DNA of 64,000 bases from Xiphophorus maculatus (lineage: Eukaryota > Chordata > Actinopteri > Cyprinodontiformes > Poeciliidae): NCBI RefSeq assembly GCF_002775205.1, contig NC_036443.1, forward strand, positions 14,085,373 to 14,149,372. The letters are read 5' to 3'. A program made the translations under genes and the position numbers. The notes below the pieces were generated by a model. That model was not told the DNA's origin. It did no database searches and worked only from the letters and a program-made list of their open reading frames with translations. Positions 6,717 through 12,700 of this stretch are shown here, one piece after another (position 1 is the first letter of the stretch; every line of letters starts with the position of its first letter).

Positions 6717-9700
6717 CTAGAGGGCGAGCCAGGCGTGGCGCAAGCATTCTGCAGCCGTGGCTCTTTTCTCTGGGACCAGCTCCAGCATGGGAAGTAGGAA
6801 GTCGGAGAAACACTCTGCTTCCTCACGGGGCCACTCGTATTTCTCCACCAGGACCTCCAGCAAACCCCACGGCTTCAGTTTGGTGATGTGTTTCAACTCA
6901 CCTGCAGACAAACGGCACAAGCAACGCTGCATCAGATGGGAGGCTACTAAAAAAATTAAATGGAAAAAAAGGGACAGAGCCTTGAAAAAGTCTTGAATGT
7001 ACTTTGGCATGTTTAACCACAAACCAATTTTATTTAAATTTTGTGCTTTATTGTATTTATAAGCCCAACAAAATGTAGTCTATAATTGTAAAAGAATGAT
7101 TTAAAAAATATATTAATAAAGGCTGGAATATTGTGGCTTACGAAAGAATATTAGGGCAATAGCGGATAAAAGAAAAACAAAGTGCGGTTACAGAGGAGTA
7201 AAAGTGAGCTCAAAACTCATTTCAGAGAAAAAAAATGTAGAAAATTTAACTTGTAAATTTGCAAGAAAAAAAAACGCAATTTTCCACAATTAAATGCATA
7301 CATTCAAACTAAGATATTCTCTGATACTGTAAAGTCAGACATTTGAAATAAAAAATATTCATAATTTTACTGACTTTAAAATCAAGAATTTTTAGACTGG
7401 GGTGGAAATTTACTCCTTCTTTAGCATATTATTATTTCTTCTATCAGCTTTAAGACTCCATCGCAGTGGGTGCATTCGCCCCACCAAATAATTTGACTGG
7501 ATTCGATGGGAGAACATTTGAAACTGAACAATGAAAGAAAACCAGTTAGAGGCAACAAAACACTTGACTGGGGCAGAGTTTCATGTTCCAGCAGGAAACA
7601 GACCCCAGACACGCAGCCAGAGCTACAATGGATGCATAATACGAAATGTAAAACTTGCTTTTCAGATGTTTTCCCCAAATAAGGTGGAAATCCATGGACT
7701 CTTCACAATTATCACCCAGTTTTGGGTTTGTAATGCGAAAACATCCAAAGGTACAAACATTTTACCAAGACAATATACTTGTTGTGAATTATATTATAAT
7801 ATATAACATTAGTAGCTACAACTTTCTGCTTACCCACTCCAAAAATAATGAGTTTTTTTTTTTTTTTTCAAATACATGGTACCAGTTTGAGCCAAAGAAC
7901 ATTTAATAATACAGAAAGAGAAAGGACGTGAATCTTGACACTTTCTTTTTACCTTTCTTGGTGAAAAAATCCTTGGAATATTTGCCGCTCATTATGAGTT
8001 TGCGTGGGACACTCCCCAGCAGCTCAATGATCAGCGCTATGTGGTCTACACCCCAGTGGGTAGCAGAAAAGGAAGAAGACAAACAACATATTGATCAGAG
8101 TGTGTCTGAGTCGGGCCCACTCTGGGTGTGTGGGTGGAGGGTTGAAGGAGTTCGAGTCCGACCGACGGCACGTCAGAGTTTACTGATTAAACTAACAGAC
8201 ATTTGAACAGCTCTCCAGCATTTCTTTGCTGCTCAATAAATAAATAGCAGCAGCATCTTTAAGGGGAAAAAACGAGGCTAATCACACAACAAACTGTTGT
8301 AATGGCAACAATCTCATTACTTAAGAGATGAAGCATTTCCCATCAGGCACTAACATCTGTCCTGGGTAAATTGATCTGAGACCAAAATACTGGTGTAAAA
8401 GCACCAAACTGTATTCAGTTTCCCTCAGACCACTTTCAGAGGTGGTCTGAGGGACTGTGGACTGTGATTCCTAATTTCTTTCAGGTCCCAACGCATAAAT
8501 TAACAAAGCACAAGGAAGTGTACCAGGATTTCTACCAGGGGGAAATAACATGAACGGCCATTAAGATTGCTTTGATTTATTTCCAAATACAGCTTCTTTT
8601 CCCACCCCCATCTCTTCTAAACATCTACAGAATAAATGTATATTATCATTGTGTTTTGCTATTTAGTTTAATTTATGAAGAGGAACTCAAGATCCTGCAC
8701 ACTTGTAATCTCACAACCAGAAGCAATTTTTTTAGGATTTTTGTTCTGGGACATTTTTCTGCTCCAGTGTAGAAGTTTGGATGAAAACGATAATGAGAGG
8801 CCGAGTCGACCACCGACGAACCCGACTCCCATCAAGTTCAAACTGCTGCAGGGCTATGTACAAGACAAATGTAACGTAAAATATTTAGAAAATCTATACT
8901 TTTTAACTCCATCTTGAAATGGTAAAAAAAAGAAAATAGACATTTTGTCACAAATTTGGATTAGACTGACTATTAAGCATTAAGCTGGCCTAATGGTCTC
9001 TGCTGGCTTAATGCTTTAGTTCTTCTATAAGCATATCAGCAGATTTATGGTTGGTGTTGAAAACCCACAGTGCAGAATGTCTAGTTAAAGTCCAGGTTCT
9101 ACTGGAGTTTTTTTCCTGTTGGAGAGTTTTTCCTCTCCACTGTCACTACCTGCATGCTCAGTAGGAGGGGTTGTGACCGTCTACAGTCGCTGCATGCTGT
9201 GAGACAATGACTCGATCTAATCCTGAGAAAACGTTTCCACTAATTTGAATAACGAACTGAACTTGACCGGATTGTTTGATAACTACAATCAATACAAATG
9301 TAATTATGGCTGGCCTTTTTCTTTTTTTAGAGTGCCGTGATGACATGCGTTCTGAACTGGCGCTCTATAAACTGAATTGAATTTTCCAGGAGGCATGCCC
9401 ATATTGAGTACAGTGTGAAGTTAAAGTAAAGATGGGACAGGACTCTTGCATGTCTCTTCAGAGCCTTTTTGAAACACATGTATTGAGAACATAAGTTCTT
9501 CTACAACAGAAGTAACTAGGCCTGTCGCGATAAACGGTAAATCGATTAATCGTACGATAAATTAAAACTATCGACGTCATTTCAATTATCGGCATCATCG
9601 TCTCTTCCGTCCTTTTTCTCTTTCTGTTGATGACACCGAATGAAAAAAAGCTCAACTCCGGTGCTCTCCACTGATCCTCCCTTCCTCATTTCCTTAGTGT

Positions 9701-12700
9701 AAAGCCCAGCGCACACGACACCATCTTAGAGCTGTTGGCTGATTGTCGGCCCATTTTCAAAACCTGACAGACCAAACATTACCCGACAGAAATCCTAGGT
9801 ATAACGGTTCGATCGGGTTCGGTCCTGCCGTGTGGTGTCCAACAATGGGCACAAAATAATGGCTGCAAGTCCAGTGAACTAATTTTAAAACCAGGCATTA
9901 ATCAATGCTTTACTACAATCTACCTGCAATGCGTGTGGCTAGTGTCAGCGTAAAGTCCTGACTGAATGAAAATCATTAGAACCTATTTACGTTATTTTAC
10001 GTTATTTCACAAAATAATGGCTGCAAGTCCAGTGAACTAATTTTAAAACCAGGCATTAATCAATGCTTTACTACAATCTACCTGCAATGCGTGTGGCTAG
10101 TGTCAGCGTAAAGTCCTGACTGAATGAAAATCATTAGAACCTATTTACGTCATGTTAACGAAGAACAGCTGAAACGTTACTGGGAATTATCAACTGCGGT
10201 AGCAATTTCGCTCCAACTCCTCCTCTTGTCATTTCTATATTCTTTGCATGTTGAATAAACATTAATGTTGTTTCCACATCGGCTGGACTTCGTGTTGCGC
10301 CGTGTCAGCTGTTTGGGATTCCCCTCTGTAATTTCCCCTTAGAAAACACAGAGGAGAATCCGCGCTTTCTGATTGGCTACCTGTTACATTCAACAGGAAG
10401 CGTTAAAGATCCCAGTCGGGGAAAAAAACCCTGATTTGGATCGGAGCGGCAACGACGATCTACCATAACACACCACACAATCTTAGAAAGACCAACGTTT
10501 TAAGATTGTCATAAGGGGAAAAATAGGAGCAAAAAAATCATGTAGTGTGAACTATTGCATCAGGTAGTCGATGTGTCCATCTTTTCTATTTAAATCTAAT
10601 TATTACTGAAGGGCAACATAATATACAGACTTCATAATCTGCACTCTTTTGGTTGAATGCAGTATTTATTTCCACTTTGGCTTTATGGTGTTTAGCTTTT
10701 ATCAAGTACATTTTTTGTTAATGGAGACTGAGAATCCATTTTGTTTTTGGTTGTTTTGTTTATTTTGTTTATCAGCTCCAGTGTTAAATATTCCTTTGAA
10801 AATAAAGTGTATCTATCTTTGGCAGGAAATCACATGCATTATTATGTCATTTCCATTAAATCAGTGTAAAAAGGTCTTCAGACAATATTATCGTTTATCG
10901 CAATAATTTTTTGAGACAATTAATCGCTCAGCAAAATTTGCTATCGTGACAGGCCTAGAAGTAACTAAAACTAAACTGTTCAGACAACAGATTTTTAATG
11001 AAGTGGTCATTTCAGTCTTTCAGTATTTTAAATAATTTTAGCATTAGGTTGCTATAGCTGTACAGCAGTTCATAAAAAATACTTTTTTTGATTAACTAAA
11101 GTCATTGCATTTCAGTATATTTTTGCTTACAAGTAATAAATGTTAGTGAGAGGATGAAATTACATGTTGGAGAGAAACAGCAAACATCTGTTGGAGACCA
11201 ATCGGTAATAATGACTGAATGTTGGTTTCATTTCTTTCCAAGGCCATGTTCAGATTTAAGGAAACACTTTTCCATGTTTTTAAATCATTTTGTATACTTC
11301 TCCAATGCATATAAAGAGTGCCGTCAAGATCGTTCTCCTTTGGTCCTCCTGTCCACCTTACCCAGAGTGAGCCACAGACAGAGGGGTGGCATACCTCTCT
11401 TGGTGAAGTATTCCTGCGAGTATTTCCCACTCAGTGCATAGTGGCGAGGGATTTTACCAAGTAACTCAATCATAAGAGCGAGGTGGTCTGGAAATGAGGC
11501 ACGTCACGGGAGGGAAAGGGCAGGAGAGGAGAGGTGGAGGAGGAGGAGGATGGCAACAATCAATTAGGAACAATGGATGATGATGATGATGGACAAGTTG
11601 ATCACAAGCAAACATGGAAAAACTTAAATATTCTAGTAAAATGATGAAACAGGACAAAAACAGATTAATAAAACAACATAATTCAACACAAAATACATGT
11701 CAGGCAACAACAAGCGGTGATAAAAAGCCAGGTGGATAAATGTTTAATGTGCTAAATGTGTAAGAGGCTCATTCACAGCTGCCTGAAGCCCGAGCATCAG
11801 CACATATCCGACATTTCAGAGCAGAACCACTTCGGAACAGAAAGTTCAAGCAAAGCAGCGCGCTGACATTTACATACAGACGGTGCAAAAGACGTCAAGG
11901 AAGCATGAGGAATGATCGATGACAACAAGGAGATGGAAGAGATGTGCCCCATTTCCAGGGTAACTAAAAAGGCTTTAGAGGGTGGGAAATTAAACTCAGG
12001 AATGTTTCTTCATAACATCATTAATTCATGACATGAACTTTTGTTTAAATGTTAACAATGTAAATATCTATGCCAACTTCACTGCAAAATACTGTGCAAA
12101 CTGCACAATAATTAGCAGTGAAAATCCAAAATCGGAGACTTGTTTTATTATTAAAATAATGGCAGCAAACAAATCAGAGCTAATAAACTAGGTATAACAC
12201 TGTGAGGGCTTTTGCAGAAGCAAAACTTCTGCCAACAAAATGTTTCAGCAGTGAAGCCGGTTTTAAAAGTGCAACCAGATAAAGCAGCTTTAGCAGTAAT
12301 GCTGCAAGGTTACAAATGAATAAAGAAAGGAGAACGGACAGGAAGAGAAAATTCAAACATTACCTTCATCCCTGGAATAATCTTCACCAGAATGAGGTTC
12401 AAACAGATAATCACCAGTGGCGAGCTCAAAGGCCTGAACAAACAAGAGAATCACCATCATCACATGAAGGAGACGCTGCACACCGTCAACTCTCTGATAA
12501 ATTCACTGATGCATTTTCAAATTCTGTATAGATTTCTTTTATCATTTTATTACAAAACTATTTCAGGGCTAGAACTGCAAAAGTATTTTTGCTTCAGTAA
12601 AAAAAAAACACCAAAACAAATCTATGACATAAGCAGATATTTAATAGTGTGTCATTACTACAGTTGTAATTTAGACCTGCTTTATTAAAAAGTTACGTTT

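Follow-up and report, generated by a model that had tools for sequence, protein, structure and literature searches.

A homologous exon pair encoding the docking-groove helix in srpk1 and srpk2 of Xiphophorus maculatus, likely to be mutually exclusive and inherited from a common ancestor

A cluster of mutually exclusive exons (MXEs) in mammalian SRPK1, which belongs to a mammalian core set and is absent in Glires, has been named by Hatje et al. (2017; PMC5740500). Here, we describe a pair of homologous exons in the srpk1 gene of the fish Xiphophorus maculatus, contained in a stretch of 64 000 nucleotides (nt) of contig NC_036443.1 (positions 14,085,373 to 14,149,372; hereafter the window), together with the same pair in srpk2 of this genome. 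The mammalian cluster lies in the same gene and consists of mutually exclusive exons; the main text of that paper mentions SRPK1 once and does not name the exon position, its sections 5, 7, 10 and 15 mention neither fish nor SRPK2, and a joint query for SRPK2 and 'homologous exons' gives no match in it, although the phrase itself occurs. In view of this cluster, the original prediction for the window, which held that no mutually exclusive pair had been described in SRPK1, was too strong. Among the matches listed from open-licence PMC papers, none concerns an SRPK2 exon pair or a shared SRPK1/SRPK2 origin, and srpk does not occur in a paper on splicing in coral-reef fish under heatwave.

Exons 9a and 9b of MAPK14 (p38α) are tandem homologous exons, and exons Ab and 3 of U2AF1 are duplicated alternative exons of a splicing factor, with an extended polypyrimidine tract on the repressed copy (PMC5224494). 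Among pairs tabulated in that paper, U2AF1, CALU, MAPK14 and P4HA1 have the longer tract on the copy that is repressed, whereas ACOX1 does not. The U2AF1 exons are 67 nt long and their joint inclusion or skipping leads to stop codons and nonsense-mediated decay (NMD; PMC5224494), whereas the SRPK exons have no such safeguard. MAPK14 encodes a related kinase and its segment aligns with that of SRPK (p38 DQLKLILRLVG with the SRPK exon), but it belongs to another kinase family, the p38 exon is shorter and encodes different residues and, on our reading of the alignment, it starts about two codons away. Both sequence types of the p38 segment are present in the PDB, and human p38 isoforms presumably differ in this exon segment.

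Homologous exons in srpk1 and srpk2

The srpk1 gene of the window is encoded on the minus strand, with coding exons that can be traced by tblastn, with human SRPK1 as the query, between about 24075 and the stop codon at 6717. The exon upstream of the pair (12364..12433, minus strand; exon 14 of the original prediction), located from the sequence and by tblastn, ends at the donor GAAG/gtaatg, and the last coding exon (6717..6901, minus strand) begins at the acceptor ctgcag/GTGAG and closes with the stop codon TAG. Between them lie two adjacent internal exons on the same strand, exon A (11395..11487) and exon B (7953..8045), each of 93 nt and phase 1-1. The introns measure 876 nt between the upstream exon and A, 3349 nt between A and B and 1051 nt between B and the last exon. 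The splice sites of both copies are intact: the acceptor of exon A ends in cctcatttccag and its donor is gtatgc, while the acceptor of exon B ends in ggggtgtag and its donor is gtaaaa. Either exon alone joins the upstream exon (at 12364) and the last exon (at 6901) in frame.

Exons A and B are identical at 20 of 32 residues (including the split glycine), 19 of 31 codons and 63 of 93 nt, with NG86 values of 0.26 for nonsynonymous divergence (dN) and ∼2 for synonymous divergence (dS). With exon B as the query in an ungapped BLOSUM62 scan, exon A scores 112, compared with 35 for the next-best site in the 64-kb window and a top score of 29 in six local single-base shuffles, which excludes a chance resemblance. 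The homologous exon pair in srpk1 is genuine. The original prediction had given the same coordinates, phases, splice sites and in-frame junctions and the same count of identical residues, all of which agree with the sequence, and its description of the pair as a tandem duplicate holds.

Against all PDB sequences, the best match of exon A is human SRPK2 by a narrow margin (50 bits; SRPK1 46.7) and that of exon B is clearly human SRPK1 (59.4 bits; SRPK2 46.3), in keeping with the SRPK2-like and SRPK1-like characters that had been predicted for them. The window gene was identified as SRPK1 by its C-terminal exons, which are closer to human SRPK1 (368.9 bits) than to SRPK2 (343.8 bits; the query included exon B), and by its neighbor MAPK14, an adjacency that we take to hold in human as well. 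Exon A is thus closest to SRPK2 among neighbors closest to SRPK1 and looks like the exon of the paralogue inside the SRPK1 gene.

A search with the exon A peptide against the genome of the window (704 Mb) returned at least eight matches in at least six SRPK-type loci (weakest E 6), and the same six loci were among the best candidates returned with the exon B peptide of srpk2. The locus at C2:27.79 Mb contains two 93-nt exons 277 nt apart, A followed by B (DHIALVTELLGKVPRKVVAAGKFSREFFSKK), in a gene whose C-terminal exons match human SRPK2 with 396.5 bits and SRPK1 with 333.5 bits (the query included exon A). In srpk2, too, the gene's own exon A is thus followed downstream by an exon B of SRPK1-like character, in an order identical to that in srpk1. 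In the intervals scanned, both exons are present at two of the six SRPK-type loci found and a single exon at the other four. A second srpk1, near mapk14 on C20, has exon B only, an srpk3-like gene has a single exon of the A type and a further SRPK locus has a single A-like exon. Retention of exon A by the second srpk1 was considered and rejected, as a scan of a 2.2-kb interval revealed no A-like exon. A divergent SRPK-like gene with one exon, distinct from the srpk1, srpk2 and srpk3-like loci, is located at C1:3140508-3140600 (DHIGQIVELLCRIPPDVVQSVKHSAQYFDRR), and a scan of viral contigs for other animal SRPKs gave two loci with 12-residue matches.

The sequences of solved structures contain B in human SRPK1 and A in human SRPK2; in the fish, srpk1 and srpk2 each retain the version of the other paralogue too. 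The pair had originally been presented for srpk1, where it is real, but it is no peculiarity of that gene since srpk2 of the same genome also has it. That SRPK1 and SRPK2 share the pair is what is new here, and it is the most informative result of this analysis.

Age of the pair

The comparison set comprised this one fish genome together with human and yeast PDB sequences. In the exon tree, built from ten sequences over 32 columns under LG+G4, the four B-type sequences, from srpk1 of the window, srpk1 on C20, srpk2 and human SRPK1, form one group (90/93). In approximately unbiased (AU) tests, a topology that groups exon A of the window with the three B copies of SRPK1 genes was rejected (p-AU 0.0074), as was one that places both srpk2 exons together (p-AU 0.00065). 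A tree of the flanking exons, from which the pair was left out, joins the C2 gene to human SRPK2 (98/99). Because the A-then-B pair recurs in srpk2 and a separate duplication is rejected, the A/B pair probably predates the SRPK1/SRPK2 split, and the simplest reading of the sequences would be a single duplication before SRPK1 and SRPK2 parted. Such a duplication would date, at the latest, from the time of the early vertebrate genome duplications.

We regard independent origins of the pairs in the two genes, or the transfer of one copy between them by gene conversion, as highly improbable. Such an origin gains from the shortness of the exons and from a B group that is not starred in the tree, but the within-gene groupings are those rejected by the AU tests, the A-then-B order is common to both genes, and cross-gene identity is only 60/93 nt for A with A and 63/93 nt for B with B. 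Over all 21 pairs of the seven fish exons, 50-75 of 93 nt are identical, and in 19 of these pairs NG86 dS either exceeds 1.1 or could not be computed, the remaining values being 0.86 for the B copies of the two srpk1 genes and 0.92 for srpk2 A against srpk3 A. This low cross-gene identity and high dS exclude a recent transfer of exon sequence between srpk1 and srpk2, and a recent gene conversion, in particular, was rejected as the origin of exon A on account of its identity with srpk2 A. Relative to yeast Sky1, identities out of 32 residues are 20 for srpk2 A, 20 for human SRPK2 and 15 for exon A of the window and, among B-type sequences, 18 for the window srpk1, 15 for srpk2, 18 for srpk1 on C20 and 18 for human SRPK1. 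A blastn search for intron sequence conserved between srpk1 and srpk2 gave only matches of 12-22 nt, the best of which (E 0.004) is in the opposite orientation.

The encoded helix and the choice of exon

In human SRPK1 numbering, which was anchored on L603-K604 as given in PMC11211491, the exon spans D564, whose codon is split by the intron, to residue 594. Alignment to the solved SRPK1 and SRPK2 sequences, with the placement of αG taken from the literature, indicates that it encodes helix αG of the kinase C-lobe and the stretch that follows. D564, A567 and E571 are docking-groove residues in this helix (PMC11809128), and two of them, D564 and E571, belong to a set of four groove residues that are essential for substrate binding and phosphorylation (PMC11211491). 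All three residues are present in each exon of the srpk1 and srpk2 pairs, and the two versions differ at 566, at 568-570 and chiefly at 575-594. Since the groove residues are the same and the differences lie mostly behind them, a swap of A for B should not destroy the kinase; we infer that it would retune docking, nearby contacts or the choice of partner while sparing catalysis.

The exon is part of a folded domain and is not simply skippable, so the structural argument originally made for exclusive use stands: skipping removes αG and double inclusion repeats it. Mutually exclusive use of A and B is therefore predicted as likely. The exons might alternatively be real but loosely regulated cassettes, with transcripts containing both or neither as a matter of routine. 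The length of 93 nt, in phase, would leave double inclusion and skipping in frame, with no steric or frame barrier to either; we nevertheless consider cassettes unlikely, as skipping would delete αG with D564 and E571, double inclusion would add a second αG to the C-lobe, and Hatje et al. (2017; PMC5740500) argue that homologous exons within folded domains are true MXEs and not cassettes.

Several routes to exclusive inclusion were compared with the anatomy of the two genes. NMD following a frame shift is out because the exons are 93 nt long, a length divisible by 3, in both copies of both genes. Steric exclusion, for which a donor lies less than 50 nt from the branch point, is unlikely given A-B introns of 3349 nt in srpk1 and 277 nt in srpk2, and every donor and acceptor is, by eye, of the ordinary GT-AG and not of the U12 type. 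For competing RNA structures between introns (the docker/selector arrangement of Dscam), no convincing case emerged against shuffled sequence: of 60 shuffles per intron pair, 13-59 matched or exceeded the longest exact complement in five of the six pairs, and one did so in the upstream-middle pair of srpk2. Counts of Rbfox, NOVA, CELF and similar motifs gave no pattern common to srpk1 and srpk2.

In the window, exon A is immediately preceded by a 67-nt tract of at least 85% pyrimidine (11490..11556, minus strand), and by the same threshold the tract before srpk2 A is 95 nt long. The tract of exon B measures 29 nt in srpk1 (8058..8086, minus strand, ending 13 nt before the exon) and 15 nt in srpk2. 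Those of three single-copy paralogues measured are 20, 14 and 7 nt, and those of the other 12 srpk1 acceptors examined in the window are 15-31 nt, these acceptors having been placed automatically from tblastn edges, with at least two (18732 and 13969) that look misplaced. Of the 7978 AG sites in the window, 3000 were sampled, and not one has a tract of 67 nt or more; in the srpk2 region, four of 1159 AG sites do, which may include sites beside exon A. An extended tract on a single copy, as in U2AF1, is thus found on A in both paired genes. As repressed duplicated exons in the U2AF1 paper (PMC5224494) tend to have an extended tract, we favor competition at the 3' splice sites: the choice of exon may be made by U2AF/PTB-type factors, with A, on account of its extended tract, as the putative repressible copy, as proposed for U2AF1 exons Ab/3. 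Exclusive inclusion and 3'-splice-site competition are the parts of our reading that we infer.

The minority copies, A in srpk1 and B in srpk2, could also be relics that are no longer spliced into mRNA, as the single copies at the other four SRPK-type loci and the pyrimidine-poor acceptor of srpk2 B (0.29 in -20..-3) would have it. Both minority copies, however, keep an open frame, the exact length, phase, splice sites and type-specific residues despite dS values that are at least 1.15 or inestimable, and we consider relics quite unlikely.

Taken together, the sequences make it likely, in our judgement, that these are genuine homologous alternative exons, most probably mutually exclusive, that SRPK1 and SRPK2 both received from their common ancestor. 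A number of points weigh against this interpretation. The comparison is limited to one fish genome and human and yeast PDB sequences. The exon tree has only 32 columns, carries no star on any of its seven inner branches and gives no supported grouping of the A-type exons, while the flanking-exon tree, with one of four inner branches starred, leaves the SRPK1 genes unresolved. The preference of exon A for SRPK2 is slight (50 versus 46.7 bits). Double inclusion is compatible with the anatomy, given exons of a length divisible by 3, A-B introns of 3349 and 277 nt and sites that look like ordinary GT-AG, and the 85% threshold for the tracts was picked while these sites were being viewed. In srpk2, the pyrimidine tract of exon B is weak and this exon has a longer branch than every other B-type sequence, which would suit an exon in decay, and the pair appears to be dispensable in one srpk1 copy, since srpk1 on C20 has B only.

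Neighboring features and biological meaning

The A-B intron of srpk1 is enlarged by an inserted element of 1439 bp (9518..10956, no strand assigned) with inverted ends AGGCCTGTC... and ...GACAGGCCT, flanked on both sides by direct AGTTACTTCT. This element is probably a non-autonomous DNA transposon, and an internal tandem copy of ∼150 bp is visible in it by eye. A sequence resembling a tRNA-derived short interspersed nuclear element (SINE) was also noted by eye upstream of srpk1 exon 14, at about 13020-13200 on the minus strand. mapk14 lies near srpk1 both in the window (28381-28298, minus strand) and on C20. On C20, mapk14 has both homologous p38 exon types (C20:23480612 and C20:23481086) and srpk1 shows B only; in the window, srpk1 keeps A and B, and the CSBP1-type p38 exon is the only type found. 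Loss of alternative exons thus seems to have struck opposite copies of the neighboring kinase genes mapk14 and srpk1.

The docking groove of SRPK1 and SRPK2 is a target of inhibitors (PMC11211491). If the exon choice is real, natural isoforms would exist with different docking behavior, in which the helix carrying D564 and E571 is rewritten. We tentatively suggest, as a possibility with somewhat less than an even chance, that an ancestral vertebrate SRPK already switched its docking-groove helix by MXEs and that the paralogues took opposite defaults, B in SRPK1 and A in SRPK2, while keeping the version of the other. Feedback may then enter into the choice: SR proteins, which select splice sites, are phosphorylated by SRPKs, so that the substrates may set the substrate preference of the kinase itself. 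The difference between SRPK1 and SRPK2 in this segment would, if this is true, be the remnant of an older splicing switch. The family would also offer a clear example of gene duplication being traded against alternative splicing, with two of the six SRPK-type loci found keeping both versions and four showing one.

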